The translations under genes and the position numbers were made by a program. From Klebsiella pneumoniae (GTDB taxonomy: Bacteria; Myxococcota_A; UBA796; SXON01), in NCBI GenBank assembly GCA_945867435.1, contig CAMBIK010000005.1, forward strand, positions 1-46,371: a DNA stretch of 46,371 nt, given 5' to 3'. Shown here piece by piece: positions 17,252 through 34,227 of the stretch (positions are counted from its first letter, which is position 1; each line of letters opens with the position of its first letter). The notes beneath the pieces were generated by a model, which was not told where the DNA came from, made no database searches, and worked only from the letters and a program-made list of their open reading frames with translations.

Positions 17252-18145
17252 CTACAGCGGTTCGTAGGCCGTGGCCTTGAACTTCAGCTCTTGCAGGCCC
17301 ACGTCGGCGCCGTAGCTATCGACCAGCGTCACCTTCAGGTTATCGATGGTGCTGCCCACATACCCGTTGTGGGCCGACACGGTGATCCATTGAAGATCGG
17401 CCTTGTCGGCAAGGGTGAAGGTCTGTACCGCGCGTTCCCCGACCTGCACGGTCACGGTCTTCACGCGCCCCTTGCCCTTGTCGCCCTGGAAGCCGATCGA
17501 GCTGACACCCCAGCCCTTCGGATCTACGGTGATGAGCGCGCCCGGCGCCCCGACCCACACGGTTTTCGGAGCGTTGTCCAGCGCCGCCGCGAGATCGCCG
17601 CCTTCAAGCGTGACGCCCGGAGTCGCCTCGGTCTCTTCCATGTACACGGCCAGCTCCGACACCCGGAGGTTCGGATAGTCGTCGCCCTCGTAGATGTCTT
17701 CCACCACCAACTTCACCTTTCCGCCGAAGAAGCTGTCGAAGCCGACCACAGCCTTCTTGGACAGCGACAGGACCTGAAGCCCACGCACATCAGCCACATC
17801 AAGCGATTCTGAAGTGACAAGCACGGCTTCCTGCGAATTGTCGATCGAGTAGACCTCCACGCGAAGCTTCTTGACGCGCGGATAATCCTTGAACGATTCC
17901 TCGTCCTTGTCCCAGCCCGCCACAATCGCGATCTTCTCCACCGTTCCTTTCGGAATGTCGAGTTCGATCCATTCGCCCTTGTTCTCGGTATCACCCGGCA
18001 GCGACCAGGCCGTTTCGGGCTTGCCATCGATGGCGGAGCCGCCGTTCCAATAGTTGGTGCCCTTCTTGGCTTCCGGCTGGAACTTGGAGGTCTTCGCTCC
18101 CGCGAAGGCAGGCTCGACGATGAGCAGGGCGAGCAACGCGATCAT
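17252..18145 (-). CDS. Secreted discoidin-like (NADase-type glycan-binding) protein
   Basis: This 297-residue exported protein starts with a signal peptide (MIALLALLIVEPAFA, cut after AFA). Its N-terminal half has the pattern of F5/8-type C (discoidin) or NADase-type glycan-binding domains: AIDGKPETAWSLPGD, EWIELDIPKGTVEKIAI, the YPRVKKLRVEVYS strand and DDYPNLRVSELAVYM. These galactose-binding-like folds usually recognise surface glycans. The second half repeats some of this layout (GGDLAAALDNAPKTVWVGAP, ITVDPKGWGVSSIGF), so the protein may consist of two such domains in tandem. It is the last gene of the leftward run that begins with sugar-nucleotide enzymes. Binding is inferred from the family. 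Confidence 0.8.
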   Translation of the reverse strand: MIALLALLIVEPAFAGAKTSKFQPEAKKGTNYWNGGSAIDGKPETAWSLPGDTENKGEWIELDIPKGTVEKIAIVAGWDKDEESFKDYPRVKKLRVEVYSIDNSQEAVLVTSESLDVADVRGLQVLSLSKKAVVGFDSFFGGKVKLVVEDIYEGDDYPNLRVSELAVYMEETEATPGVTLEGGDLAAALDNAPKTVWVGAPGALITVDPKGWGVSSIGFQGDKGKGRVKTVTVQVGERAVQTFTLADKADLQWITVSAHNGYVGSTIDNLKVTLVDSYGADVGLQELKFKATAYEPL

Positions 18146-18196: not shown

Positions 18197-19573
18197 CTAC
18201 AGCGTGACGGTGACCAGGGGAAGCTTGATGTCCGTGTGAGACTCGGTGCCGGTGGGCAGGTGTCCGCTCGGGTCGTTGCCGTAGCTGGAAACGGCCTCGC
18301 CCGCCTCGTTCACGTTGCCATCGCCATCCGCATCGAGGTAGGCCCAGAGGTACACAATGGTGTTGGCGGGCGCCACCAGCGTGAAGCTAAGCGAATCCCC
18401 GACGAGATCGGCATCCGCGTAGCTGACATAGTCGTAGGCGTTGCCCGGGATATCGCCGGCGCTCAAGTCGGAATCGGGCTTGTACTTCATCGCAGCGACA
18501 TGCACCTTGGCGCCGGCGCCGAGGGCACCAAAGCCATCGGCGAGCGAGACCGACCCGGAGAGCACCACGAACGGCACCACCGAGGGGCTTACGCCCGTTC
18601 CGGAAGGGATCATGATGGTGTGATCGGCGAGGGCACTTTCCGCGACGACGATTGGGTTGGCCGAAGCCCCGGTTCCATCAACATATTCGCCCCACTTGTC
18701 GGCCGGGTCGATCAGGCCGTTGAAGTTGGCATCCCAAGCGCCGAGGAGGTTTCCCGTACCCCAATTCTTGGGGACGTACATGCCGTATTCGCCTTCGGCC
18801 CCGCCTTCGGTCATCACGGGTGTGAACGCATCCGCATAGTAGGGACCGGTGCCATCTTCCATATAGAGCAGGCTGATGCAGCTGCCCCCCGCGTAGGACT
18901 CGGTGATCAGGCCATCGCCGCTGATGTAGACGTAGTCATCCACGTTCCAAGTGCTGCCGCCGCCACCCCCACCACCCACGCCGTTGCCGCCACCCCCGCC
19001 GCCGCTACCCGTACCGAAGTCGTAGTAGGCGGCCGGGATGTCGATATCGACATCGGTCACTTCCGCGCCCGCGAGGACAGGAATGGTATCGGGCCAGATG
19101 CCCACCGGCTCGGTGCTCGAAAGGATGCCATCCCCCCAGTAGTCCAGGATCGCGTAGACCCGTACGTTGGCCGCAACTTCCGGGTCTACCTGAAGCTCGT
19201 AGTCATTGCCGGTCGCGTCGGGCGACCGGATCACATACTGGTCGAGGAAGTTCATGGAGAAGGCTTCTTCGTCGAGCGAGTAGGCAGCGACGAAGATCGC
19301 GCCGAAGGGGAAATCCCCGTCCGGATAGACCTCTTCCCACTCGGCCCACACCATTTCGCCATCCGTGTCGGTGGTGTACAGCTCCACCTTGACCGTGCCC
19401 GAGATGATGCCATCCGTGCCCGCGGGGGCATCGGTGTCCTCGCCCACCGGGACCTGCTCAAGGGCCTCTTCCGTGGGATCGGCCCCGGCCGGCTCCTTTT
19501 CCGCCACTTCGACGGTCACGCAAGCGTTTAGCGAGAGGGCCATTCCACCAAACAGGATCGTCGAGGCACGCAT
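18197..19573 (-). CDS. Lipoprotein with calcium-loop-like repeats and poly-Gly linker
   Basis: This 458-residue lipoprotein begins MRASTILFGGMALSLNAC (lipobox LNAC) with an acidic linker. Three copies of a loop with alternating Asp/Asn/Gly are visible: AILDYWGDGILSSTEPVG (about 130-147), GAWDANFNGLIDPADKWG (about 288-305) and AYLDADGDGNVNEAGEAV (about 415-432). Each is followed by a hydrophobic strand, as in repeats that bind Ca2+ (DxDGDG type). A glycine-rich linker (GTGSGGGGGGNGVGGGGGGG) separates repeat 1 from the rest. The three repeats share a DxxxxGxxxxxExxG frame that suggests duplication. It sits 31 bp downstream of the OmpA-TSP3 gene and 51 bp upstream of the discoidin gene. Function is unknown; adhesion or matrix anchoring is possible. 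Confidence 0.75.
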   Translation of the reverse strand: MRASTILFGGMALSLNACVTVEVAEKEPAGADPTEEALEQVPVGEDTDAPAGTDGIISGTVKVELYTTDTDGEMVWAEWEEVYPDGDFPFGAIFVAAYSLDEEAFSMNFLDQYVIRSPDATGNDYELQVDPEVAANVRVYAILDYWGDGILSSTEPVGIWPDTIPVLAGAEVTDVDIDIPAAYYDFGTGSGGGGGGNGVGGGGGGGSTWNVDDYVYISGDGLITESYAGGSCISLLYMEDGTGPYYADAFTPVMTEGGAEGEYGMYVPKNWGTGNLLGAWDANFNGLIDPADKWGEYVDGTGASANPIVVAESALADHTIMIPSGTGVSPSVVPFVVLSGSVSLADGFGALGAGAKVHVAAMKYKPDSDLSAGDIPGNAYDYVSYADADLVGDSLSFTLVAPANTIVYLWAYLDADGDGNVNEAGEAVSSYGNDPSGHLPTGTESHTDIKLPLVTVTL

Positions 19574-19604: not shown

Positions 19605-21281
19605 TTACTTCTGGTCCACGATGATGAATTCTACGCGACGGTTCTCCCCGCGGTGATCTTCGCTGTCGTTTGCGACCTTGGGGCGCATCTCTCCGAACCC
19701 GGCAGCGTCCAAACGGCCGACTTCGATGCCGCGCGACGCGAGAGCGGATTTCACCGACTCGGCGCGCCCTTGGGAGAGCTTCAGGTTGGCAATGTCGCTG
19801 CCAACGTCGTCAGTGTGCCCCTCGATGCGGATCCGTAGCAACTGCGGGTTCGCAAGGATTACCTTCGCAAGTTCGTCGATGAGGGAGCTGCTTCTCTCCA
19901 TGATCGTGACCTTGTTGAAGTCGAAATAGATCACATCGTTGATCTTGATGAAGCCCTTTTCCAAAACCACGCGACCCTCATCGGGGCAGCCATCCTCGTC
20001 CCGATCGCCGTCGATATCTTCGGCGTCGTAGGGGCAGCGGTCCAGGTCGTCGCTGATGCCATCGCCATCGCTGTCACGGTTGGGGCAGCCGGCGAGGTCG
20101 GCCACGCCCGCCTCGATGGGGCACTGGTCGTCGGCATCCGCCACGCCATCCTTATCGTTGTCGGGCTCGGGGCAGCCGTCGTTGTCCATAAATCCGTCGT
20201 CGTCTTCAGGGTCATTGGGGCACTTGTCGATCGTATCTTCACGGCCGTCGGCGTCGTTGTCGAGCTCGGGACAGCCGTCGCGATCCTGAAAGCCATCGAG
20301 ATCTTCCGCTTCGTTCGGGCACTTATCCTGACCGTCCGCAACGTGATCGCGATCCACGTCGCGCGAGTTCGGGTCGAAGTTCGGGGCGAAAACCACGCCA
20401 CCGTACACTCGGAAGTCCGGCGCCCCGACGCCGCCCCCGAGCCCAGTGCCACCGCCCAAGGTGACCGAAAGCAGGTCCGACATCAGGAACTTGCCGCCGA
20501 CTCGGACTTCCGCCGCGTTCTGCGCGGTGCGCGCGCCAGCGGAAGTGCCCACCAGTTCCACGTTGATTTCGACAGGCGGCGCCACTCGGTAGCCCGCAGC
20601 AAAACCGTACAGGAGGGCGTTGCCGAAGCTCGCCTCCTGAAGGCGGGCAGGTTCGCGGAACCGAACACCACTCATCGCAGCGACGCGCAGCTTGTAGGCT
20701 CGCGTGTGAATCTTGCCGTCGGACCATTCCACGACCACCTGAGGCGAGGCAGAGGCCGCGCCCTCGCCCAAGAAGGCTTCCGGCGCGCCCGAAGGCACGG
20801 TGACCGGCAGGACGAGCGCAACCCCCAGCGGGAAGGCATCGCGGTCGAGCACGACCGCTTTGGGAGTGAGCACGATGTCCCCCGCGCCCGTGGTCGGCAG
20901 CGTGGCGGGAACCGGAATTGCCAAGGTAGGCGCGACGAAGCCATCTTGAGCCAAGACCATCGGAACGTCCACGCTGACGCTGACGTACCGCCCAAAGCCG
21001 AGCGCAACCTGGGCATGCATGGTAGCCCGACTGTTCACCAGGGCATCCGCTTCCCCACCGTTGGGCGAAACGCGGTTGCCCGCGGCATCCACCAGCACCA
21101 CCGGATCGTCGCTGTAGTTGAACCAAAGCCCTCCGCCAAGCTGCAGGTTCTGAAGCGTAGAGGCGCTAGGCATCCCCGCGTATCCGTAGGTGTCCGCGTG
21201 GGGACGGAAAAGCTCGAAATCGAGCCCAGCATCCCCTTCGGCTGCCGATGCGCCGAGGACCAAGAGTAGAATACCGGCCAT
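19605..21281 (-). CDS. OmpA-family outer-membrane protein with thrombospondin type 3 repeats
   Basis: This 558-residue protein has a signal peptide (MAGILLLVLGASA), an N-terminal beta-rich domain of about 300 residues (probably a beta-barrel or porin-like region), five or more TSP3 calcium-binding repeats at about residues 315-440 and a C-terminal OmpA domain. The TSP3 units read like RDHVADGQDKCPNEAED, GREDTIDKCPNDPEDDDGFM and DGISDDLDRCPYDAED, with the Cys-Pro motif. The OmpA-like domain contains YFDFNKVTI, GHTDDVGSDIANLKLSQGRA and the GENRRVEFII motif that contacts peptidoglycan. It likely ties the outer membrane to the cell wall. I use the ATG at 21281, which overlaps the upstream stop by one base. 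Confidence 0.92.
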   Translation of the reverse strand: MAGILLLVLGASAAEGDAGLDFELFRPHADTYGYAGMPSASTLQNLQLGGGLWFNYSDDPVVLVDAAGNRVSPNGGEADALVNSRATMHAQVALGFGRYVSVSVDVPMVLAQDGFVAPTLAIPVPATLPTTGAGDIVLTPKAVVLDRDAFPLGVALVLPVTVPSGAPEAFLGEGAASASPQVVVEWSDGKIHTRAYKLRVAAMSGVRFREPARLQEASFGNALLYGFAAGYRVAPPVEINVELVGTSAGARTAQNAAEVRVGGKFLMSDLLSVTLGGGTGLGGGVGAPDFRVYGGVVFAPNFDPNSRDVDRDHVADGQDKCPNEAEDLDGFQDRDGCPELDNDADGREDTIDKCPNDPEDDDGFMDNDGCPEPDNDKDGVADADDQCPIEAGVADLAGCPNRDSDGDGISDDLDRCPYDAEDIDGDRDEDGCPDEGRVVLEKGFIKINDVIYFDFNKVTIMERSSSLIDELAKVILANPQLLRIRIEGHTDDVGSDIANLKLSQGRAESVKSALASRGIEVGRLDAAGFGEMRPKVANDSEDHRGENRRVEFIIVDQK

Positions 21282-22798
21282 CAAAGACCCTTCCTTTCAC
21301 GCCGGGCCACACCCAGGCCCAGGCCCAGGAGCGCTGCCAGCACGCCGGCGTTTCCGCCGACCACACCGCACAGGCCTCCCCCGCGCACAGAGGCAAGGGT
21401 GGCGCTCCGCGAGCAATCCGCTTCGTTGTCGATCCAGCCATCACAATCGTTATCCACCTGGTCGAAGCAGACTTCCTTCGCGCCAGGGTTGACCTGTCCG
21501 CTCAGGGCGACTTGCGAGGCCGGGTAGCCATCGGCCTCCCCCAGATCCATGCAGTCGCCGCCCTCGCTGGTGAATCCGTCGCCATCCTTGTCAGGAATGT
21601 CCACGACGCCATCGCAATCGTCGTCGATGCCGTTGCCGAGGTCTTCCATTCGACCGGGGTGCACTTCCTCGTTTGCATCGTCGCAATCGAAGCCGTCACA
21701 GCAGAGCTCGCCGGTGCAGCTGGTGTTTACGCTGGCCATCGCGAGGTAGCTGTCGCCGTCGGCATCGCAGGCTTCAAGCAGGTCGCAGTCTTGGTCGATG
21801 CCGTCGTACGGCAGCTCGGCCGCGCCGGGGTGAACGGAGTCGTCGGCGTCGTCGCAATCGTCCCCGCAGGGCTTCTCGGCACCCCGAGCGGTGTGGGAGT
21901 AGCCATCTTTGTCATCGTCCAGGTCGTCGATGCAACTGTCGCAGTTGTCGTCGTCTCCATCCAGGAATTCCACGGCTCCAGGGTAGGTGCTGACGTTGGC
22001 GTCATCGCAATCGCCATCCACTTCAGTCCACCCATCGCCGTCGTCGTCGGTGATGCCGTCGTCCCGAACGCCGTCGCAGTCGGCGTCGTCATCGGCCTCT
22101 CCATTTGGGGCCTCGATCCCATCGGTCGCATCTGGGTTGATCTCATCATGTTCGTCGTCACAATCGCCCTGGAACTCGGCGTAGCCATCGCCGTCGTTGT
22201 CGACGTTGTACTCATCGCCGCACTGGTCGTTCGAGGCCCCAGGGGTGCCCTTCATGCCGGGGCCGGAGGGGATAATCGATCCTGAAGAACACCAGTTCAG
22301 TTGTAGATCGTTCGCCCATTCGTTTGCACTTGCGTTGGGTTGGGACTGCAGCGCTTCGTCGGCCGTGAGAGACCATGTAGAATCCCAATCCACCACATCC
22401 AGTTCCAGGCCCGCGAAGCTGATCCGAAGCACGTCATCCGCCGCCGCGATGTTGAACTCGCTGAGGTAGCTGTAAAGGTAGTCCACAGGGACATTTCCGT
22501 TGTACCCCGACACCGTTTCGTCGCGCTCGGTGCTTGCCCCGAACACGAAGTAATCGCCAACTCCGAGCGAAATAGGCGGATCGGCCGGAATGAGCAGCGA
22601 TTGGGTGCTGCGCTCGATCAACAGCCCGTTGAGGGTGATCGTGACCCCCGAATTGTTGTAGATCTCGAACCACTCCCCAAAATACGGGGCCACGGCCGTA
22701 GGATCCGCCTGCACCTCCGTCACGGTGAGATCCCCCCGACGGGCCGGAACAGCGGCCCAAGCCGAATCGAGGAGGTGAGGCATCAGTAGAACGAACAT
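21281..22798 (-). CDS. Lamin-tail-domain protein with MopE-type metal motifs and sorting-like C-tail
   Basis: This 505-residue secreted protein starts at ATG 22798 (signal MFVLLMPHLLDSAWA). Residues about 20-165 form a lamin-tail-like domain (WFEIYNNSGVTITLNGLLI, LGVGDYFVFGAS, LRISFAGLELDVVDW). Then follow five MopE-type Asp/Cys units (DNDGDGYAEFQGDCDD, DDGDGWTEVDGDCDDANV, DDKDGYSHTARG..., FDCDDANEEVHPG, NDCDGWIDNEADC), which in this family coordinate metal ions. The C terminus GGGLCGVVGG, hydrophobic helix, RRERKGL resembles the MYXO-CTERM anchoring tail, with a Cys before the helix. The stop overlaps the OmpA-TSP3 start by one base. Extracellular or surface location is likely. Confidence 0.85.
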   Translation of the reverse strand: MFVLLMPHLLDSAWAAVPARRGDLTVTEVQADPTAVAPYFGEWFEIYNNSGVTITLNGLLIERSTQSLLIPADPPISLGVGDYFVFGASTERDETVSGYNGNVPVDYLYSYLSEFNIAAADDVLRISFAGLELDVVDWDSTWSLTADEALQSQPNASANEWANDLQLNWCSSGSIIPSGPGMKGTPGASNDQCGDEYNVDNDGDGYAEFQGDCDDEHDEINPDATDGIEAPNGEADDDADCDGVRDDGITDDDGDGWTEVDGDCDDANVSTYPGAVEFLDGDDDNCDSCIDDLDDDKDGYSHTARGAEKPCGDDCDDADDSVHPGAAELPYDGIDQDCDLLEACDADGDSYLAMASVNTSCTGELCCDGFDCDDANEEVHPGRMEDLGNGIDDDCDGVVDIPDKDGDGFTSEGGDCMDLGEADGYPASQVALSGQVNPGAKEVCFDQVDNDCDGWIDNEADCSRSATLASVRGGGLCGVVGGNAGVLAALLGLGLGVARRERKGL

Positions 22799-22857: not shown

Positions 22858-24444
22858 CTAATGCCGGATGAGACGGATTCCCTCGACGGGGAGGAGGCCG
22901 ACCACCACATCCGTCGTGCTGTTGGCTCGTGGATCCCCGGCGGTGGGGCCATCCCCAGTGAGGTCCTGGTAGGCCTCGATCTCGACGGCACCGAGCCCCG
23001 GAGTCACCTGGGCCTCCCACATTCCGGTCTGCGCCACCACCGTACCCACGTGCTTCCTGCCCTTGCCTGCCGCCAGCGCGGGGGTGAATATGTCGACCTT
23101 CACCACCGCGGCTCCGGGGAGGTCGACCGTTCCTGACAGCTTCACGCTCGGTCCAGCGGGCATGTCGGCCCGAGGCTGCGTAGGGGGCTGCGTGGGCGAG
23201 CCCCGCCTTCCGGCGACCAGAGTCAGGGTGGGCGCAGTGGCCAAGGTGGCCGAGGTGACCGTGAGCTCGGCGAAGGGGTCGCTGGGGGAAGGCCCGTCGC
23301 GATCCGGGTCCTGGAACGCCTCGATCCGGAAGCTGGCCACCGTGGTCGGCACCCTGAAGCTGAACGGGCCCGTCCCCAGAAGCTGAAGCTGCCCCACCCG
23401 CTTCTGGCCGCCGGGGGAAGCCACGTCGGGTTCGTTTACGTCCAACTGGATTCCGCCCGTCAGGGGGGCGACAAGCGTGCCGGAAAAGAGCGTCGTGGCT
23501 CCCGAATGGCCCTCCCACGGCACACGGACCTGGCCGGAACCGCCGGCCGGAACCGCCTGCGCGGCTCCCCCGGGCCCCGGGCTGCCGGGGCCCGCCCCGC
23601 CCGTGCCCGCAGCCCCGCGGCTGCCCGCAACCAAGTTGATGCGCACGGGTTCCGCCGTGAGCGTGGAGACCACGGTCGTGAGCTCGGCGTAGGGGTCGTC
23701 GGTGCTGGGGCCGTCGCTCTCGCGATCCTGGAAGGCCTCGATTCGGAACTGCGTGACCGAACGCGGAACTTCAAGGGTAAAGGCGCCAGATTGGGGAAGG
23801 CGCACCTGGCCGACCCGACGCTGCCCCCCGGGCGCCGACGCATCGGCCTCGGCGACGTCCACCTGGATTTCCCCGTCCTCGGAAGACAGCACTTCCGCCG
23901 TGAAGGTCACGGTCTCCCCCACAAATCCCAGCCACGGTGCGGCCTCCCCACCCCCGCCCCCCCCCGCGCCCGCCTCCGAAGGCGCGGGCCGCGCACCCAC
24001 GACCAGATTGACCGGAACAGACTTCCCGGATGCGCGGGCCGCCGCCACGTCCACCGTTTGGGTCGCGTAGGGGTCGTCCGAACTGGGGCCATCGCCGGCC
24101 GGGTCCTGAAAAACCTCGATCTTGAACGTCGTGACGGCGATCGGCACGGAGAGCGTGATGGTCGTTTCCTGGGTCTCGACGCGACCGACACGCTTCAGAC
24201 CACCCGCCGCAGCGGCGTCGGGAATGACCACATCGAACTGCGCGGCGGCCTCAAGCAAAGAGATTATTTGAAAGGTCAATTCCGACTTTTCACCCAGCAC
24301 ACTGTCCCACGGCAGCCCGAGCGCGCCCTGAGCACCCGAGGGAGACTCCGCCCCGCCCCCCCCAACGTAAAATGCTGGATCAAGCGGCACGGCGACATCC
24401 GTGACGCGCTCGATGCACGCGATCAGGAGGGTGAGCGGTAGCAC
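22858..24444 (-). CDS. Lipoprotein of four tandem FQDxxxDGP repeats
   Basis: This 528-residue lipoprotein starts at a GTG (24444) inside the 3' end of the epimerase gene; signal VLPLTLLIAC, lipobox LIAC. It consists of four about 100-residue units (about residues 44-150, 170-275, 309-412, 433-525) separated by Gly/Ala/Pro-rich linkers. Each unit has a GG(Q/L)(K/R)RVG-type motif and ends with a conserved element at 107-130, 233-256, 372-395 and 487-510: FxIEAFQDxxxDGPSxxDPYAxxT. This resembles no repeat I can name; the acidic Asp-Gly-Pro turns might bind Ca2+ in a beta-sandwich. A run of eight G on the coding strand covers codons 28-30, which makes it potentially phase-variable. It is co-transcribed with the sugar-nucleotide genes. 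Confidence 0.85.
   Translation of the reverse strand: MLPLTLLIACIERVTDVAVPLDPAFYVGGGGAESPSGAQGALGLPWDSVLGEKSELTFQIISLLEAAAQFDVVIPDAAAAGGLKRVGRVETQETTITLSVPIAVTTFKIEVFQDPAGDGPSSDDPYATQTVDVAAARASGKSVPVNLVVGARPAPSEAGAGGGGGGEAAPWLGFVGETVTFTAEVLSSEDGEIQVDVAEADASAPGGQRRVGQVRLPQSGAFTLEVPRSVTQFRIEAFQDRESDGPSTDDPYAELTTVVSTLTAEPVRINLVAGSRGAAGTGGAGPGSPGPGGAAQAVPAGGSGQVRVPWEGHSGATTLFSGTLVAPLTGGIQLDVNEPDVASPGGQKRVGQLQLLGTGPFSFRVPTTVASFRIEAFQDPDRDGPSPSDPFAELTVTSATLATAPTLTLVAGRRGSPTQPPTQPRADMPAGPSVKLSGTVDLPGAAVVKVDIFTPALAAGKGRKHVGTVVAQTGMWEAQVTPGLGAVEIEAYQDLTGDGPTAGDPRANSTTDVVVGLLPVEGIRLIRH
24356..24363 (-). repeat. Eight-G run in the repeat-lipoprotein gene
   Basis: A run of eight G on the coding strand covers codons 28-30 of the four-repeat lipoprotein, just after the signal. 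A one-base slip would truncate it. See the phase-variation finding. Confidence 0.4.
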
Positions 24445-25376
24445 GCCACAGTCTCCTGGATCCCGGCTTGAAGTTTCACGCGCGGCACCCAACCGGTGCG
24501 AGCGTGCATACGCGAGGTGTCCAGGAGCTTTCGCCGCATTCCGTCCGGCTTCTCCCTGTCCCACCTGACATTTCCCGCGTATTCGGTGGCGAGAGCGATC
24601 GCCGCCGCGAGCTTGGCGATCGAATGCTCCTCGCCGCTGCCCAGGTTCACGGGGTCGGGGCCCCCGCCGCACTCCAGCAGGCGGACCAACCCCTCTGCGG
24701 CATCGCGAACGTGGAGCAGATCGCGGGTGGCGCTGCCCGTTCCCCAACACACCACCTCCGGCGCCAGCGCGTCGTGGGCGACGACAAAGCGCCGCACCAG
24801 CGCTCCGACCACATGGGCGCGAACAGGGTCGAAGGATTCTCCTGGCCCATAGAGGTTGGTCGGCACCCCAAAGGCGCAATCGAAGCCGGTTTCCTCGGCC
24901 AAAGCACGCCCGTGGATCATCATCGCCCGCTTCGCCCAGCCATACGGGCCGTTGGTCGGCTCCGGCAGACCTTCCATGAGGCGCGCCTCCTCCATCGGCT
25001 GCACCGCGTCCCGCGCGTAGGCGCAGGCCGAGGACACCCCCACCAACCGCCGCACGCCTGCCTGTTGAGCTGCATCGAGCACATGGGTATTCGCAAGGAT
25101 ATTACCAGAGAACGAAGTGGCGGGATGGGCTTGCATCCAGCCAATCCCGCCGCCCACCGCCGCGGCGTGGAGGACCAATTCCGGCGCGAAGCGAGCGAAG
25201 GTCTGAACCACCGCGCGACGGTCGGTCAGTTCGCATTCCGCCCGACCGATCGCGAGCGGCTCCGCCCCGCGCGCCCGCAAGCACTCCACCAACCAACGGC
25301 CCAAAAAGCCGTGGGCCCCGGTCACCATTACGCGCTTCCCTCGCAGCGCAATCAGCTCGGACCACGCCTCGCTCAT
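24423..25376 (-). CDS. GDP-L-fucose synthase-like epimerase/reductase
   Basis: This 317-residue short-chain dehydrogenase resembles Fcl (GDP-4-keto-6-deoxymannose 3,5-epimerase/4-reductase) and its colitose counterpart ColC. Visible features are the NADP fold GAHGFLGRWLVE, HAAAVGGGIGW, SSACAY (family SSCIY, so the Cys is one position later), the catalytic Tyr145 and Lys149 in EPTNGPYGWAK, PTNLYGPGESFD, His188 in RAHVVGALVRRF, WGTGSATRDLLHV and KPDGMRRKLLDTS. The displaced Cys118 may change the epimerase step. It follows the SDR gene by two bases, and the repeat lipoprotein starts inside it. Together with the 3-dehydratase this suggests a deoxyhexose nucleotide such as GDP-colitose; no mannose guanylyltransferase or 4,6-dehydratase is in the window. 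Confidence 0.82.
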   Translation of the reverse strand: MSEAWSELIALRGKRVMVTGAHGFLGRWLVECLRARGAEPLAIGRAECELTDRRAVVQTFARFAPELVLHAAAVGGGIGWMQAHPATSFSGNILANTHVLDAAQQAGVRRLVGVSSACAYARDAVQPMEEARLMEGLPEPTNGPYGWAKRAMMIHGRALAEETGFDCAFGVPTNLYGPGESFDPVRAHVVGALVRRFVVAHDALAPEVVCWGTGSATRDLLHVRDAAEGLVRLLECGGGPDPVNLGSGEEHSIAKLAAAIALATEYAGNVRWDREKPDGMRRKLLDTSRMHARTGWVPRVKLQAGIQETVACYRSPS

Positions 25377-25378
25377 CG

Positions 25379-26314
25379 CTACACGTTGCTGTAGGGGTTG
25401 CGGATGCGGACATGCGAGAGGCCGCCGATCAACTCGTTGAGCCCACGATCGATATCGACCGCCACCTCGAAGCCCAGGCCACGCACGCGTGCGTAGCTAA
25501 CCTCGTAATCCCGCTTGTCCTCGTCGTTGCCGACATCGGCAAAGTATAGGTGGAAGTTCAGCTTACCCTGAAGAAGGCGGGTAATGTCCTCCTTGGTAAA
25601 GTTCATGCTTTCGTGGCCAACGTTGAGCACCTGGTCCTTCGCACGGTCCCAGTTGCGAAGCAGGTGGGGCACCACGCGGGCCATGTCGTGCACATGGATG
25701 AACGTCCGGCGAAAATGCCTCTCGTAGACCAGGAGATAGCGGTTCACCAAGGCCTGGTAGGTGAAGTCGTTGATCATCAGGTCGAGCCGAAGCCGAGGCG
25801 ACAGACCGAAGGCAGTCGCGAAGCGGAGCGCCACCGTGTTCGGCCGAGACATCGCCATCTGCTCGGCGGCGGTCTTGGTTTCACCGTAGAGAGAAAGCGG
25901 ATTTAGCGGCGTTGATTCATCGCACACCCCCAGAACTTCCCCGTAGTTGCTCCCCGTAGAGAAGTTGATGAACCGCGTTTCAGGGCGAATGTGGTCGAGC
26001 ACGGCGCGAGTGCCATCCAGATTGGTCTTCCTCGCTTCATCCGGCCACTTCTTGCACGCGGGGTACCCCACGACGGCGGCAAGGTGAACCACGGCGTCGG
26101 CGTCGGCAAGGTCGGCGGCGAGCGCGGGAATGTCGAGCACATCCCCCTGCCGAAACGAAAAGTTCGGATGGATGAAACATCCAAAAATAGGTTCTACGCC
26201 GAACTTGAGCGTGTCCACCACATGAACGCGGTAGCCCTCGTTCAACAGATGCGGGACAAGGACGGAGCCGACGTACCCGGCGCCTCCGGTGACGACGACC
26301 TTGAGGCGGTTCAT
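25379..26314 (-). CDS. NAD-dependent epimerase/dehydratase (SDR)
   Basis: This 311-residue SDR starts with VVVTGGAGYVGSVLVPHLL (NAD-binding GxxGxxG at residues 10-16), has HLAAVVGYPACKKW, NFSTGSNYGEVLG (Ser region), catalytic Tyr143 and Lys147 in SLYGETKTA, and RRTFIHVHDMARV. The closest families are UDP-glucose 4-epimerase-like and nucleotide-sugar dehydratase SDRs of polysaccharide clusters. The pattern lacks the specific signs of GDP-mannose 4,6-dehydratase. It may act on the intermediate made by the dehydratase encoded upstream. I chose the ATG at 26314; a GTG at 26332 would add six residues. It is in line with the neighbouring sugar genes (30 bp and 2 bp spacers). Confidence 0.82.
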   Translation of the reverse strand: MNRLKVVVTGGAGYVGSVLVPHLLNEGYRVHVVDTLKFGVEPIFGCFIHPNFSFRQGDVLDIPALAADLADADAVVHLAAVVGYPACKKWPDEARKTNLDGTRAVLDHIRPETRFINFSTGSNYGEVLGVCDESTPLNPLSLYGETKTAAEQMAMSRPNTVALRFATAFGLSPRLRLDLMINDFTYQALVNRYLLVYERHFRRTFIHVHDMARVVPHLLRNWDRAKDQVLNVGHESMNFTKEDITRLLQGKLNFHLYFADVGNDEDKRDYEVSYARVRGLGFEVAVDIDRGLNELIGGLSHVRIRNPYSNV

Positions 26315-26344
26315 GGAGTCGGAGTGTAGCACCCTGAGCCGGGG

Positions 26345-27568
26345 CTAACGAGCGGTGCCAGCGCCCCAACCCTCGATCGCTCTGCGCAGACGGTCGCCGT
26401 GCGCGGCCCCGAATGCGTGGTGGTTCCCGACGAACAGGCCGCGCTCGTGTACGGCCTCCGCGACTGGAAGGGGAACGGGTGCCCGGGCGCCGGCCACAAG
26501 GGCGAACGCCGGTTGGCACACAAGGTTGCTGCCCGAAATCGGTCGGGTCTCAATCTTCTGAGCTTCAAGGTGCGCCATCAACGAGCGCCGGTCGCCTTCG
26601 ACCAGCATCGGGAACGCAAAGCCGGCGTGCTCGGTGCCGGCCGCCTCGGGAAACACGCCCACCAACCCCGCCAGCGCGGCACACCAGTCGGCGTGGTTCT
26701 GCCGCCTGCGTTCCAGCCACGCAGGCAGGCGGCGCGCCTGAACCAACCCGAACGCCCCCGCGATCTCGGTGGGCCGAAGGTTGTAGCCCGAAGATACGAA
26801 GAGAAACCTTGGATCTATGTCAGGAAAACGCTCCGCCCATTTTGCCCGGTCGCTGCGCTCACGCACCCAGCCGTGGGCACGTTGGGACCGCAGAGCATCC
26901 GCGAGATCGCCATCGTCGGTGACGATCATCCCGCCTTCAATCGTGGTGATGTGATGGGAGAAGAAGAAGCTGAACGCCGCGGCTTCGCCGATGCCGCCGA
27001 CTCGACGACCCTTGTAGACCGCACCGTGGGCCCCACACGCGTCTTCCAGCTTCAACAGCCCTTCGAACGCGTCGAGATCGCAGGGTTGGCCCAGCAGATG
27101 AACACCCAGGACCGCCTTCGTTCGCGGTCCAGCCGCCGCGCGCGCCGAAGCGGGGTCGATGGTGAGCGTTCGCGGATCGACATCGACCAAAACCGGCACC
27201 AGGCCACACTGCGCAATGGGGAAGAGTGAGGTCGACCAGGTGACGGCGGGGCAGAGCACCTCATCCCCCGGGCGCAGCCGGCCCAGTTCGACCATCGCCG
27301 CGAGCATCAGCAGCACCGCGGAGCTACCAGAGTTCACCATGACACCCTGGGAACGCCCACAATATCGGGCCCACTCGACCTCGAATGCCCGCACCTTTTC
27401 GCCCATCGTGACGCGGGTGGACAACAGGGAATCCAACGCACCGAGCACTTCGTCGGCGCCGTAGGGCACCAGCACCAGGGGGTGGCCTTCGGCGGCATCA
27501 GCGCGTTCTATCGGCAATCCTGCCATCTCCTCGCGGATCAGGGCCTCGATGTGCTCACGGCGCGTCAT
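26345..27568 (-). CDS. DegT-fold sugar 3-dehydratase with His in place of PLP Lys (ColD/RfbH type)
   Basis: This 407-residue protein is a DegT/DnrJ/EryC1/StrS-fold enzyme. In aminotransferases of the fold the PLP-binding lysine sits in a motif such as SFHAIKNITCAEGG; here the same place reads SFFFSHHITTIEGG, so Lys is His205. This replacement is diagnostic of the 3-dehydratases: ColD (GDP-4-keto-6-deoxymannose) and RfbH/E1 (CDP-sugar). They use PLP or PMP to remove the C3 hydroxyl. LEDACGAHG, WVRERSDRA and NLRPTEIAGAFGLVQ are further family elements. No cysteine cluster for an Fe-S site is evident, which favours ColD over RfbH, but this needs alignment. It is the first gene of the eight-gene leftward run, divergent from patatin. 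Confidence 0.86.
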   Translation of the reverse strand: MTRREHIEALIREEMAGLPIERADAAEGHPLVLVPYGADEVLGALDSLLSTRVTMGEKVRAFEVEWARYCGRSQGVMVNSGSSAVLLMLAAMVELGRLRPGDEVLCPAVTWSTSLFPIAQCGLVPVLVDVDPRTLTIDPASARAAAGPRTKAVLGVHLLGQPCDLDAFEGLLKLEDACGAHGAVYKGRRVGGIGEAAAFSFFFSHHITTIEGGMIVTDDGDLADALRSQRAHGWVRERSDRAKWAERFPDIDPRFLFVSSGYNLRPTEIAGAFGLVQARRLPAWLERRRQNHADWCAALAGLVGVFPEAAGTEHAGFAFPMLVEGDRRSLMAHLEAQKIETRPISGSNLVCQPAFALVAGARAPVPLPVAEAVHERGLFVGNHHAFGAAHGDRLRRAIEGWGAGTAR

Positions 27569-27615: not shown

Positions 27616-28770
27616 ATGCTCGGCTTTGTACTATCGGGAGGGGGGGCGCGCGGAGCCTACGAGGCGGGCGTGCTTCGCTATGTGTTCACGACGTTGGCGG
27701 AGCGCCACGGCATCGATCCGAACCCCGACTTGATCTCGGGCACGAGCGTGGGGGCGCTCAACGGAGCGTGGGTCGGCGCGAGGGGGTCTGCGGGAGCGTC
27801 GCAGCTCTGGGAGTTCTGGCAGCGGGTGACCATCGACCAGGTGTACAACTTCGCCGCGACCGACTTCCTGCGCTGGCCTTCGAAGTGGCTGGAACGAAAG
27901 ACCGAATTCGGGGACGGGATCGGACTTTTCGACCCGACGCCACTGTATCGCCTGATTCGGGACGGCGTGCCGTGGAGCGACTTGCACGCCCGAATCGACC
28001 GGCGAGAGCTGCGGGCGTTCATGGTCTCGGCCACAGACGTAGGCAGCGGCAGAACACGGATTTTCACCGATGGGGACGTGCGCCTGCGCCGGGCGGCGAC
28101 TTCGACCCCGACGGCCTGCCGTGTCGGCCCCGAGCATTGCCTTGCGAGCGCCGCGATCCCCTTCATCTTCCCGGCGATTCGGGTGGACGGGCGGTACTTT
28201 GTCGATGGCGCGCTCCGTCAGAACACGCCCTTGTCTCCTGCCGTGGAAGCCGGTGTGGACCGGGCGCTCGTGATCGGAGTGAAGCGTCTCAAGGCGGAGG
28301 AGGAAGCTCCCTCCCAGTCGCCCTCTCCCGCCTTCCTGGCAGGGAAGGCGCTCAACGCGCTCCTCCTCGACCCGATCGAAGAGAACATCCGACGCGTCGA
28401 CGCGCTCAACGGGCTGATGCGCTGGGGGCAGGCCTCCTGGCCCGACTTCATGGAGCGACTTCGCGCCGAGCACAAGCCCTACCATGTGGTTGAGCACGTC
28501 TTCTTGCGCCCGAGCGAAGACCTCGGGAAAATGGCTGCGCAGATCTTTGCCGTTACCAAGGACGATCTTCCTTGGGCCATCTCGCGTCTTCTCAGCAGCG
28601 TGTCGGGCGGGGACGACCAAAAGGAGGCTGACCTGATGAGCTACTTGTTCTTCGACCACCGCTACACAGCGGCGATGGAGGACCTGGGCTACCAGGACGC
28701 GGCCAGGGCGGAGGAGCAGCTGGCAGCTCTGTTCACCCGGCCGAAGGAGCCCATCCGCACCCTCGGGTGA
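27616..28770 (+). CDS. Patatin-like phospholipase
   Basis: Patatin-like enzymes hydrolyse acyl esters of phospholipids or other lipids with a Ser-Asp dyad. In this 384-residue protein the oxyanion Gly loop is SGGGARGAYEAG near the N terminus, the nucleophile is Ser44 in SGTSVGALNGA and the Asp is Asp197 in DGALRQNTPL. The segment VGPEHCLASAAIPFIFPAI precedes it. The C-terminal 130 residues are helical, with a polar end. Cytoplasmic or membrane-associated activity is likely, as no signal is seen. A run of seven G lies in the Gly loop codons. An ATG eight bases upstream (27608) is out of frame. The gene is divergent from the sugar 3-dehydratase gene. Confidence 0.92.
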   Translation: MLGFVLSGGGARGAYEAGVLRYVFTTLAERHGIDPNPDLISGTSVGALNGAWVGARGSAGASQLWEFWQRVTIDQVYNFAATDFLRWPSKWLERKTEFGDGIGLFDPTPLYRLIRDGVPWSDLHARIDRRELRAFMVSATDVGSGRTRIFTDGDVRLRRAATSTPTACRVGPEHCLASAAIPFIFPAIRVDGRYFVDGALRQNTPLSPAVEAGVDRALVIGVKRLKAEEEAPSQSPSPAFLAGKALNALLLDPIEENIRRVDALNGLMRWGQASWPDFMERLRAEHKPYHVVEHVFLRPSEDLGKMAAQIFAVTKDDLPWAISRLLSSVSGGDDQKEADLMSYLFFDHRYTAAMEDLGYQDAARAEEQLAALFTRPKEPIRTLG

Positions 28771-28788
28771 GCGTGGTAGCTTCCGCCG

Positions 28789-30159
28789 ATGGCGGCGGCA
28801 CGATCTCCACTCACGGGCATCTCCGTCTTTTCCGGTGGAGGCATCGGCGATCTGGCGATGCGTGCTGCAGGCGTCCGATTGGAGGTGGCCTGCGAGCTCC
28901 TCGCGGAGCGCGCTTCGGTGCTTCAGGCCAACTACCCCGAGGCCCATGTGTTCTGCGGGGATGTCGCTTCCCTGAAGAACGAGCTGATCGCGGTGGCACT
29001 CAAACGGCTCAAAGGCAGGCCGCTCGACCTCCTCTTCGCCACGCCGCCGTGCCAGGGAATGTCCAAGAACGGGCGGGGCAAGCTGCTCAGCGCGGTGCGG
29101 GCGGGCAAGAAGCCTCTGCTCGACCCCCGGAACCAGCTGGTTTTCCACGCCATCGACCTGGCCCTCGCGCTGCGCCCGCGGCTGGTGGTTTTTGAGAACG
29201 TCCCGGAGATGGAGCACACGCTTATCCAGGATCGGAATGGGCAAGTTCGGAATGTGCTGGACGTGATCCGAGACGAGCTCGCGCCGACCTACCTGGGGCG
29301 CAGCGAGGTCGTCGAGTTCGCGGACTACGGCGTGCCGCAGCGTCGCCAGCGCCTGATCACGGTGTTTGCTCGCGAGGGCGAGGTGCGTGCGCGGGCAGCC
29401 GCGGGGGGGAGCCTTCTTCCTCCCCGGACCCATTCCAAGGCCGGCGGGGGCGGAAGGCCGAGGTGGACTTCGGTCAGCGAGGCCTTGCGGAATGTCCCGT
29501 CGCTCGATGCGCGCACCCTGCAAAGCGCCTCGTCACCCCTCCCCTTCCACACGGTACCCGTTCTGGATGACCGGAAGTACTTCTGGGTCAGCCACACCCC
29601 GCCTGGCAAGGGAGCCTTCGACAACCAGTGCGTACACGCCGCTTGCGGCTTCGACGGGAACCCCACCCACGGGGCACGTCGCGATGAGCGCGGGATCAAT
29701 CGTGCGAATGGCGATACGCCGATTCGGTGCGCGCGCTGCGGCGAGCTGCTCCCTCGACCGTGGGTCGTCGAGGGCGGCCGCCATCGGATCATGTCGGGCT
29801 TCACCAGCGCCTACAAGCGGATGGCGGGCGACCTCCCCGCCAGCGCCCTCACACGGAACCTTTCGTATGCCTGCAGCGACCAAAAGCTGCATCCCACGGA
29901 GCACCGAGTGCTCTCCTTGCATGAGGCGTTCATCCTTCACACCGTGGCCGACTACGCGTTCACCTGGCGGCGTGCGGATGGCCGAACGCTCTCCAAAAAG
30001 ACGATAAGGGAGATCCTCGGCGAGAGCATCCCGCCTCGCGGGCTGCAGTTGATCTTCGAGCACCTCCTCGCAGGGCTCCCCACTCAGGCGAAAACAGGAT
30101 GGAATCGGACCTCCGCATCGACGCCGGCCTCACCATCCCCGGCACCGAACTGCGCGTGA
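28789..30159 (+). CDS. Orphan cytosine-5 DNA methyltransferase with cysteine knuckle
   Basis: This 456-residue protein is a C5-cytosine DNA methyltransferase. Motif I (SVFSGGGIGDLAMRAAG) binds AdoMet, motif IV has the catalytic Cys88 in ATPPCQGMS, motif VI is VVFENVPEM (Glu136) and motif VIII QRRQRL; motif IX/X is HRVLSLHEAFILHT near the end. The target-recognition region (about 195-355) contains Cys281, Cys286, Cys314 and Cys317 (CX4C and CX2C), suggesting a zinc knuckle. No restriction endonuclease or specificity gene is adjacent, so it is probably orphan and epigenetic or protective. The 3' end overlaps arfB by 61 bases; the last about 20 residues are therefore probably not conserved. Confidence 0.9.
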   Translation: MAAARSPLTGISVFSGGGIGDLAMRAAGVRLEVACELLAERASVLQANYPEAHVFCGDVASLKNELIAVALKRLKGRPLDLLFATPPCQGMSKNGRGKLLSAVRAGKKPLLDPRNQLVFHAIDLALALRPRLVVFENVPEMEHTLIQDRNGQVRNVLDVIRDELAPTYLGRSEVVEFADYGVPQRRQRLITVFAREGEVRARAAAGGSLLPPRTHSKAGGGGRPRWTSVSEALRNVPSLDARTLQSASSPLPFHTVPVLDDRKYFWVSHTPPGKGAFDNQCVHAACGFDGNPTHGARRDERGINRANGDTPIRCARCGELLPRPWVVEGGRHRIMSGFTSAYKRMAGDLPASALTRNLSYACSDQKLHPTEHRVLSLHEAFILHTVADYAFTWRRADGRTLSKKTIREILGESIPPRGLQLIFEHLLAGLPTQAKTGWNRTSASTPASPSPAPNCA

Positions 30160-30527
30160 CCACGAGCCGCTCGGGGGGCCCCGGCGGGCAGGGCGTGAAC
30201 ACCACCGACAGCCGGGTAACCCTGCGTTGGAACGTGCAAAGCTCCGCGGCCCTTGGCGAGGAAGCGCGCGAACGACTGGTGGCGCGCCTGGACCGCCGGG
30301 TGACGGCAGAAGGGGACGTGAGCGTGTCGGTGAGCGACGAGCGCAGCCAGCTCAGCAATCGCGCCACCGCCCGGGAGCGGCTCGCTGCGATGGTGCGGGG
30401 CGCGCGAATCGTGCAGCGGGTACGGCGGCCTACGCGGCCTACGCGCGGGTCGAAGGAACGCAGGCTCGTCGCCAAAAAGGCGCGTGGCGCGAAGCTCAAG
30501 AATCGGGAACCGGGATCATCGGACTGA
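30099..30527 (+). CDS. arfB: ArfB-like peptidyl-tRNA hydrolase for ribosome rescue
   Basis: ArfB (YaeJ) frees ribosomes stalled at the 3' end of mRNAs by hydrolysing peptidyl-tRNA. This 142-residue protein matches the family length (E. coli about 140). The GGQ motif is at residues 29-31 in SRSGGPGGQGVNTTDSRV, preceded by the LTIPGTELRVT strand. The C-terminal tail (SKERRLVAKKARGAKLKNR) is rich in Lys and Arg, as in ArfB, where it enters the mRNA channel. It starts inside the 3' end of the methyltransferase gene. The assignment is firm because class-I release factors are about 360 residues with extra domains. Confidence 0.94.
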   Translation: MESDLRIDAGLTIPGTELRVTTSRSGGPGGQGVNTTDSRVTLRWNVQSSAALGEEARERLVARLDRRVTAEGDVSVSVSDERSQLSNRATARERLAAMVRGARIVQRVRRPTRPTRGSKERRLVAKKARGAKLKNREPGSSD

Positions 30528-30662
30528 GGGGCCCCCGAAGGCGAGGACATCGCCGGCGATGGTTCCGCCGATGGGTCACGGGCGTCAGGCGATGTGGTTT
30601 TCGCGATGGAGACGTTCTGCGCCTCCTCCGGCCAATTCACCGCCGCACTTTAGGCCACCGCC
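30528..30662. other. Convergent intergenic stretch with a 14-bp palindrome
   Basis: These 135 bases separate arfB from the leucine-rich-repeat lipoprotein gene; the two genes converge. A perfect 14-bp palindrome (CATCGCCGGCGATG) lies at 30548-30561. It has no loop and no T-run, so it is not a convincing terminator. I see no supported gene in this stretch. Confidence 0.35.
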
Positions 30663-32510: not shown

Positions 32511-32526
32511 CCGCAACGGTAGCCCA

Positions 32527-33234
32527 TCAGGCCGAGAAGAGGCGACTCCGCGGCAGTTCGGTCATCAGCACCCGGAGGTGATCGACCCCCACCGGCCAGC
32601 TCGACGCCTTGCGTTCGCCGCCGATTCTTTGCCCTTCCTTTGTCGGAACCTCGTCGATCCGCCAGCCGCGCTGCATGGCGCGAATGGTGATCTGGTATTC
32701 GATGGGGAAGCGCTTCACAGTAGTGTCCAGTTCGAGGAGCGCGCTGCGGCGCAGGGCGCGGAAACCGTTGATGGTGTCGTACACCCTGGGGCCGCGATGA
32801 AACAGGCGATTGGCGAGCTGCGACAACGTGTCGTTCACCCTGGCCCGAAGCTTGACCACCTCGCCATCTTCCTCGTTTTCCGCCCCGGGCCCGAAGCGGC
32901 GGGCGATCGCTACATCCGCGCCATCGAGGAGGCGGTCGTCCAGCCGAACGATGTCAGCCGGGTCCTCATTGCCATCGGGACTGAAAAACACGAGTCGCTC
33001 GCTGGATACCGCTTCGGCCGCACACCGGAACGCCACACCACGCCCACGAATCGGCTGCACGACCACGGGAATCCCCTTCTCCCGGAAGAATTCCTGCGTG
33101 CCGTCGGTGCTGCCGCCATCGAGCGCCACCACCTCACGGAATTCGGCGAGCGGGAGCTGCGCCCACAGCGCACGCAGCCCCTCAATTTCGTTGAGCGTAA
33201 GCAGGATGAGGGCGGAATCGCGCACAGCGGGCAT
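32527..33234 (-). CDS. Glycosyltransferase family 2 (DPM1-like)
   Basis: This 235-residue protein is a GT-A fold family 2 glycosyltransferase without transmembrane segments. LILLTLNEIEGL starts the nucleotide-binding part, VALDGGSTDGTQEFF is the usual DGSxDGT loop, FFSPDGNEDPADI contains the metal-binding acidic motif, and DTINGFRALRRSALLEL matches dolichol-phosphate-mannose-synthase-like members. Such enzymes add a hexose from a nucleotide sugar to a lipid or sugar acceptor. The stop of the SGNH gene upstream abuts this start, so the two are co-translated. The substrate is unknown. Confidence 0.88.
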   Translation of the reverse strand: MPAVRDSALILLTLNEIEGLRALWAQLPLAEFREVVALDGGSTDGTQEFFREKGIPVVVQPIRGRGVAFRCAAEAVSSERLVFFSPDGNEDPADIVRLDDRLLDGADVAIARRFGPGAENEEDGEVVKLRARVNDTLSQLANRLFHRGPRVYDTINGFRALRRSALLELDTTVKRFPIEYQITIRAMQRGWRIDEVPTKEGQRIGGERKASSWPVGVDHLRVLMTELPRSRLFSA

Positions 33235-34227
33235 CTACTTCACCAACCCATTCGAAAGGAGGAACTGCGCCATTCCCTGGGCGATGACCTCGTTGCCCGC
33301 TGGGTTCGCATGGCCGCGATCCTCGGGAAAGTACAAGGTCTCCGACGCGGCGCGGCGGGCCATGTCTGGCTGCGGATCGAACACCGGTACGTCGAGCTCC
33401 TTGCTGGCCGAGTGCAGGATGGCGCGGTGAGCTTCGGTGTAGCCGCTCACTTCCAACGGGTAGCCAAACAGCATGAAGCGCGCGCCCACCTGGGCCGCCC
33501 GGGCGGCGAACGCACGGATGTTCGCCACATATTCATCGAGGGGGATCCGCGCTTCCCCGCCGTGGCCCGACTCGCTCGCGGCCTTGCGGCGGAGATCGAC
33601 CTCGTTACGAATCCAGAGGTAGGACTTGAGGCGATGGAGCACCGTTTGCTTGAGGAAGTCCGCGTCCTGCATGAGCAACGCCTGGGTGTGATCGCTATAC
33701 TGAACCACGCGGGAGTCCTGTACAAGATACCCAAAAATCACCAAGTCAGGGGCGTACTTTGCCAGCGCCCTGTCCCACAGCCACAGACCCTGGAAGCTGC
33801 TGTAGCCGGGCTGGCCCGCGTTGATGACTTCGACCGGGTGGCCGCCCTCGGTGAGCAGAGATTCAAGGCGGGCGGGGTAGGACTCTGCGTCGTCGACACC
33901 CCAGCCGAACGTGGTCGAGCAGCCCAGCGTCATCACCCGGTAGGCGCCTGCGGCCTTGGCTTCCGCGTGAAGCGGTGCGCGCAGACCGTTGCTGTCCGTG
34001 CTCACCCGGAAGGTGCCCCCTCGCTCCTTGTGGGGGGTCGCTTCGAGGTTCAGGTTGGAGGGTTCCACCCACGTGACCGTGTTGTGGGTGAACACGGCGG
34101 CGGCCGGGATGCGCGGCCACCCGCTCCCCCAGAGATAAGCCTCAAACCCACCGAAGAATAGGATGAGCGGCAGCAGCGCGAACCAAAGCTTCCGACCCCA
34201 TGTCAACCGGCGCCGAGCGCGCGCCAC
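33235..34227 (-). CDS. Membrane-anchored SGNH/GDSL hydrolase
   Basis: This 330-residue protein starts at a GTG (34227) right after the upstream stop. A basic n-region (ARARRRLTWGRK) and one transmembrane helix (LWFALLPLILFFGGFEAYLWG) anchor it, with the catalytic part outside. The SGNH signature is visible: block I TLGCSTTFGWG (the Ser), INAGQPGYSSFQG (Gly block), YLVQDSRV, and the C-terminal DRGHANPAGN holding the Asp and His. Such enzymes are O-acetyl or acyl transferases or esterases acting on polysaccharide or lipid. Next to a GT2 gene it may modify the same glycan. The function is inferred from the fold. Confidence 0.86.
   Translation of the reverse strand: MARARRRLTWGRKLWFALLPLILFFGGFEAYLWGSGWPRIPAAAVFTHNTVTWVEPSNLNLEATPHKERGGTFRVSTDSNGLRAPLHAEAKAAGAYRVMTLGCSTTFGWGVDDAESYPARLESLLTEGGHPVEVINAGQPGYSSFQGLWLWDRALAKYAPDLVIFGYLVQDSRVVQYSDHTQALLMQDADFLKQTVLHRLKSYLWIRNEVDLRRKAASESGHGGEARIPLDEYVANIRAFAARAAQVGARFMLFGYPLEVSGYTEAHRAILHSASKELDVPVFDPQPDMARRAASETLYFPEDRGHANPAGNEVIAQGMAQFLLSNGLVK

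Follow-up and report, generated by a model that had tools for sequence, protein, structure and literature searches.

Outer-membrane lipoproteins with a single transthyretin-like domain serve bacterial secretion systems, and the available text of PMC3213119 reports a DALI Z of 6.4 between TssJ and transthyretin and describes TssJ and the pilotin ExsB as having a common transthyretin fold. A second kind of envelope system is the myxobacterial pair TraA/TraB, in which, according to the available text of PMC3325183, TraA is a MYXO-CTERM protein whose tandem repeats possibly form a stalk and TraB is OmpA-like. Here we analyse a predicted lipoprotein of an uncultured myxobacterium-like bacterium, encoded in a DNA stretch of 46,371 nucleotides (hereafter the window), whose relatives vary the number of beads in the middle of the protein and keep both ends. 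Combining all lines of evidence, we assign a probability of about one half to the reading that it is a length-variable, lipid-anchored stalk that presents a cap domain and is linked to a surface-glycan pathway.

The lipoprotein gene opens with a GTG codon at position 24444, with AGGAG 8 nt upstream, and its translation starts M-LPLTLLIA-C (Table 1). After the (V/M)LPLTLLIAC lipobox region come a tether, a brief G-rich segment and the four homologous units with linkers between them, in which G, A and P account for 39 of 57 residues. The earlier note had described a lipoprotein with four copies, about 100 residues each, of an unnamed repeat, and this description is borne out by the lipobox LIAC and by the lack of any Pfam or NCBIfam family for the protein; the regular spacing of 126, 139 and 115 residues between motif starts is likewise reproduced. 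The GG(Q/L)(K/R)RVG element that it placed in every unit is intact in units 1–3 only, unit 4 reading KGRKHVG. All six unit–unit alignments score 109–269, far above the maximum of 64 reached in 1000 shuffles per pair, so that the repeat is not a product of chance. Identity to unit 2 is 44% for unit 1, 50% for unit 3 and 32% for unit 4, which forms a distinct subtype in the unit tree.

Table 1. Positions of the lipoprotein, its parts and its neighbouring genes in the window.
Feature	Position	Strand	Remark
Lipoprotein gene	22858..24444	-	GTG start, 528 codons + stop; frame open
Nine-residue signal peptide (V/M)LPLTLLIA ahead of lipobox Cys	24418..24444	-	no basic residue
Lipid-acceptor Cys and conserved tether, CIERVTDVAVPLDPAFY	24367..24417	-	predicted disordered
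Unit 1 (beta-sandwich)	23986..24315	-	
Asp loop of unit 1, DPAGDGPSSDDP	24070..24105	-	
Linker 1, G/A-rich	23941..23985	-	
Unit 2 (beta-sandwich)	23614..23940	-	unit used for modelling
Asp loop of unit 2, DRESDGPSTDDP	23692..23727	-	
Linker 2, G/A/P-rich	23524..23613	-	
Unit 3 (beta-sandwich)	23200..23523	-	
Asp loop of unit 3, DPDRDGPSPSDP	23275..23310	-	
Linker 3, P/T/Q-rich	23164..23199	-	
Unit 4, C-terminal cap subtype	22861..23163	-	
Asp loop of unit 4, DLTGDGPTAGDP	22930..22965	-	
OmpA-family protein with thrombospondin type 3 repeats (OmpA-TSP3)	19605..21284	-	
LTD/MopE gene, next after lipoprotein	21281..22798	-	sub-cut-off partial lamin-tail-domain match, MopE-type Asp-rich motifs
Epi1, NAD-dependent epimerase/dehydratase	24423..25376	-	end overlaps start of lipoprotein gene
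Epi2, NAD-dependent epimerase/dehydratase	25379..26332	-	
DegT/DnrJ/EryC1/StrS-type aminotransferase	26345..27568	-	
Family 2 glycosyltransferase (GT2) of conserved cluster	32527..33234	-	
GDSL/SGNH-type hydrolase of conserved cluster	33235..34227	-	

Relatives of the whole protein (E ≤ 0.001) occur in 40 of 58 related genomes, including the genome of the window and those of all 10 congeners; the unit profile matches 22 of 188 genomes of the phylum at E ≤ 1e-8, and a profile of the single-unit paralogues matches 32 of 235 genomes at E ≤ 1e-5. No listed genome of family f3, which belongs to the same order, was matched in the whole-protein, unit or single-unit-paralogue search. The window's genome encodes further single-unit lipoproteins on contigs C116, C23 and C7, with a partial match on C65. 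Across 30 loci, the number of units per protein ranges from 2 to 6; in L017, L019 and L023 the gene is truncated where the locus or contig stops. We built a tree of 103 units over 108 columns by a quick method that left 45 of 100 inner branches open, after setting aside one weak fragment from L028 (E 0.6). A single branch with support 91 has the C-terminal units of all 30 proteins on one side (mean of 26.2 changes after shuffling), and the 44 units that are internal in proteins of the window's family form a group with support 99. We read this tree as pointing to an ancestor that would have possessed one or more internal units plus a cap, the internal units having probably multiplied separately in families f1, f4 and f5. 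We rejected recent tandem duplication within the lineage of the window, since across the genus each unit clusters with its orthologues at the corresponding position in other species. Fusions of the unit to GDSL hydrolases were also considered, yet the unit-like C-terminal stretches in L060 and L061 (i-E 0.03–0.05) are too weak a match.

Purifying selection acts on every unit in three species pairs, with dN/dS of 0.07–0.47, ratios that are rough given dS of 0.49–1.66, and none of these pairs shows positive selection on the cap. Among the units, the lowest mean pairwise identity over 8 species is that of the cap (47%), a pattern that would fit a variable head and equally a relaxed end.

The profile search that the earlier note had proposed, with a view to a described domain, yielded no strong match in Pfam, NCBIfam or the sequences of the PDB. 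The whole protein has no Pfam match at E ≤ 1 and no NCBIfam match; 71 single units scanned against Pfam gave DUF7363 as the best match (3 members, best E 0.0017) and otherwise stray matches, and two profiles searched against PDB sequences returned nothing convincing, with E of 0.026 and worse. No plasmid record matched unit 2, and a literature search on motif sequences and phrases, in a library with few subscription journals, returned no paper. A Pfam scan of the single-unit paralogues, tried as a bridge to a named family, failed. Two candidate families, both absent from the Pfam scans, were rejected after profile–profile comparison with members from related genomes: DUF2141 (PF09912; hhalign probability 1.2%, 29 columns), which has a D-E-N-x-N-G-like loop after a strand that hhalign places against the Asp loop without statistical support, and CarboxypepD_reg (PF13620; probability 1.5%, 21 columns), a carboxypeptidase regulatory-like domain in which a G-x-F-x-x-x-P step is in register. 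By the libraries searched, the unit is an undescribed domain family, while its general kind, the tandem beta-sandwich envelope lipoprotein, is already known.

Using unit 2 together with 71 aligned units, AlphaFold2 predicts a seven-stranded beta-sandwich (pLDDT 89.1, pTM 0.81) with strands at residues 12–20, 27–35, 41–50, 54–61, 66–72, 86–92 and 101–104; the unit is thus predicted to be well folded (pLDDT 89), and not disordered, the outcome that the earlier note had named as counting against it. In the full-length model (8 sequences; pLDDT 70.5, pTM 0.31) the units are folded and their placement relative to each other is undefined, with the linkers and residues 1–40 below pLDDT 50. Foldseek with the unit model returned no structure at E ≤ 0.001; the best E was 0.009, and the rows include transthyretin and TssJ. 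The top VIA-align row is the type III secretion pilotin ExsB (2yjl_C; Z 9.1, rmsd 3.0, 92 aligned residues, 9% identity), a score barely over the best Z of 7–8 usual for unmatched models and thus a lead on fold class and no more. AspS (5wec_A) has Z 6.5 at 13% identity, and transthyretin and 5-hydroxyisourate hydrolase (2rox, 3qva, 2h1x) have Z 6.0–6.2 over 93–96 residues at 7–11% identity; many unrelated rows score in the same range as transthyretin 2rox (6.0). Among the VIA-align rows, no named family of repeats from bacterial surface proteins is conspicuous, which in itself excludes none.

The ExsB, AspS and TssJ rows, together with the transthyretin fold described for TssJ and ExsB, would suit an assembly or pilot lipoprotein whose units bind a large envelope protein, perhaps the adjacent OmpA-TSP3, and act as its pilot. 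We regard such a role as unlikely: beyond the marginal Z and low identity of the ExsB row, no secretin, TssM or other type VI secretion gene is present among the window proteins scanned, and a variable copy number is not expected for a pilotin.

At the N-terminus, LIAC follows a hydrophobic stretch and conforms to the lipobox pattern [LV][ASTVI][GAS]C, and most relatives carry a lipobox-like Cys, with Ser at this position in L048. We counted start codons in 30 loci. These are L050, L051 and, from the set of 30 homologous loci made up of L001 and L004–L032, the 28 that remain once L019 and L023, whose N-terminus is absent, are left out. An ATG, GTG or TTG codon lies 8–10 codons before the Cys in 26 of them, the exceptions being L015, L022, L024 and L032, and some of the 26 also offer alternative starts. 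In five loci (L007, L008, L009, L028 and L050), an upstream stop within 33 codons leaves the short form as the sole start, so a longer signal peptide is excluded there. In the window, an in-frame TTG 25 codons before the Cys, absent from several relatives, is a possible start, and we therefore infer the nine-residue form there from the relatives. Short signal peptides of relatives, such as MVPLLLLSA-C and MAWLLLAG-C, contain no basic residue, and two exported neighbours likewise start without basic residues near the N-terminus. The predicted signal peptide is thus not one of ordinary length with a basic n-region; the ordinary length, 16–26 residues in the available text of PMC8689077, is an average and not a strict requirement. 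If real, a signal peptide of 8–10 residues would bear on the accepted lower limits of size and charge for lipoprotein export.

The tether that follows the Cys, CLERVTGExVPLDPRF, is the best-conserved stretch of the protein, with 85% mean pairwise identity over 8 species versus 47–65% for the units. Its conservation despite predicted disorder suggests that the tether is a docking site near the membrane.

The gene lies in a conserved neighbourhood. Epi1 is directly upstream of the lipoprotein gene in 15 of 19 loci (L033–L038, L040–L048) and within 5 kb in L049 and L050; it is absent from L051, and L039 begins at a contig start. The LTD/MopE gene follows the lipoprotein gene in 16 of the 19 and OmpA-TSP3 is present in 17, L045 ending at a contig edge. 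The flanks of L051, which has a g2-like variant of the tether, contain no sugar genes, LTD/MopE or OmpA, showing that adjacency is not obligatory. GT2 and DegT are adjacent in L040–L047, so that the patatin, C-5 cytosine DNA methylase and LRR/MopE genes that separate them in the window (27616–32516) look like an insertion. Downstream of the lipoprotein gene, the window encodes a 458-residue protein without Pfam or NCBIfam match (18197–19573), conserved between the OmpA and F5/8 genes, and a conserved gene (17255–18145) matching PF25302 (NADase_transloc, F5/8 type C-like) with 55.8 bits, which is also found in the loci of several relatives. The cluster is carried as well by two metagenome-assembled genomes labelled Klebsiella pneumoniae (L042 and L043), labels that are probably wrong.

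Across the 58 genomes, the distribution of Epi2 (E ≤ 1e-40) coincides with that of the lipoprotein: 40 genomes have both and 18 have neither. The absences fall in 16 f3 genomes, in G022 (family f2, in which G031 carries both genes) and in G051 (family f4; 72% complete), so that they represent two or three independent events, not 18. By comparison of the two match lists, 28 of the 40 genomes have the two genes within about 6 kb of each other on a shared contig; in the other 12, contig ends intervene (G004, G015 and G037) or the lipoprotein and epimerase are on separate contigs (all five g2 genomes, G026, G031, G043 and G045). That the lipoprotein is inherited together with a nucleotide-sugar gene suggests a surface glycan as what the stalk serves.

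The protein from 21281–22798 ends in a GGGLCGVVGG...ARRERKGL tail that appears MYXO-CTERM-like by eye, with no match in the NCBIfam scan. Its Cys-hydrophobic-Arg layout, and the 232 bits scored by OmpA-TSP3 against the TraB model of NCBIfam, which stands for outer membrane exchange, would accord with an adhesin or cell-contact receptor in the manner of TraA/TraB, namely a stalked surface protein beside an OmpA-family partner. The TraB cut-off is 700 bits, however, and the match is confined to the TSP3/OmpA part, for which reason we do not file this neighbour as TraB; moreover, the scanned proteins gave no PA14 match, and diversifying selection is not indicated, dN/dS being below 0.5 for every unit. 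Such a receptor thus seems improbable.

The Asp motif, placed by the earlier note at the end of each unit, turns out to be a loop after predicted strand 5, with two further strands C-terminal to it. In the numbering of the 115-residue unit model, D74, D78 and D84 lie in this loop between strands 5 and 6, and D30 on strand 2. Across 71 units, conservation is nearly complete at D30 (70/71), D74 (71/71), D78 (65/71, with 5 Asn), G79 (68/70), P80 (66/70), D84 (68/70) and P85 (64/70). Some single-unit paralogues carry DEDKDGKPGPLDP-like loops of the form D-x-D-x-D-G; in two loci (L035:1302-2156 and L036:1721-2581), a single-unit lipoprotein with such a loop is encoded upstream of DegT. The pattern is one that we take to resemble Ca2+ loops, and judged from residue conservation, Ca2+ binding by the near-invariant D-x3-DGP-x3-DP loop is plausible. 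A protein whose four Asp loops act chiefly as a store or buffer for Ca2+ or a different divalent ion is nevertheless improbable, since, for all its invariant loop, the D-x-D-x-D-G loops of some paralogues and the MopE-type and TSP3 Asp-rich motifs of its neighbours, one site per about 100 residues makes poor storage and the fixed cap and tether are left unexplained.

Fixed ends around a variable middle fit a spacer or stalk, a layout that a pilotin, an enzyme or a metal store would not need. In the stalk reading, the very short type II signal peptide would direct export of the protein and the Cys of the lipobox would be lipidated; the conserved, disordered tether would then dock to a partner near the outer membrane. 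The predicted beta-sandwich units, whose number varies among relatives, would act with the flexible G/A/P linkers as a spacer, possibly stiffened into a rod by Ca2+ bound in the D-x3-DGP-x3-DP loop of each unit, and the C-terminal cap, which groups on a single branch, would be the working head held at a distance. Its partners would be the products of the linked nucleotide-sugar/glycosyltransferase genes, LTD/MopE and OmpA-TSP3, with which it probably holds or organises a surface glycan or layer. A bolder version, which we hold to be doubtful, is a length-tunable surface device with an invariant tether, a fixed cap, 1–5 spacers, an ultra-short uncharged signal peptide and its own nucleotide-sugar cassette, whose cap would hold or receive a dedicated glycan, kept a defined distance away from the outer membrane. 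The undescribed domain family is present in several copies per genome and spread over most families of one bacterial order, and its architecture of fixed ends and variable middle makes stalk length in the bacterial envelope cleanly testable.

Compared with known systems, the protein resembles the transthyretin-fold outer-membrane lipoproteins ExsB, AspS and TssJ in its lipid anchor and, weakly, in the structure of one unit; those proteins, however, consist of a single domain and serve secretion systems, whereas here 2–6 units stand in tandem with no such system nearby. Transthyretin and 5-hydroxyisourate hydrolase have the beta-sandwich in common with the unit, yet we know of no comparable Asp loop in them. 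Among the Foldseek rows for the full model are macroglobulin domains, fibronectin III, the Gram-positive pilin PitA and adhesin extender repeats (TM-scores of 0.09–0.14 on the query), tandem beta-sandwich rods with which the protein shares the bead-string layout alone.
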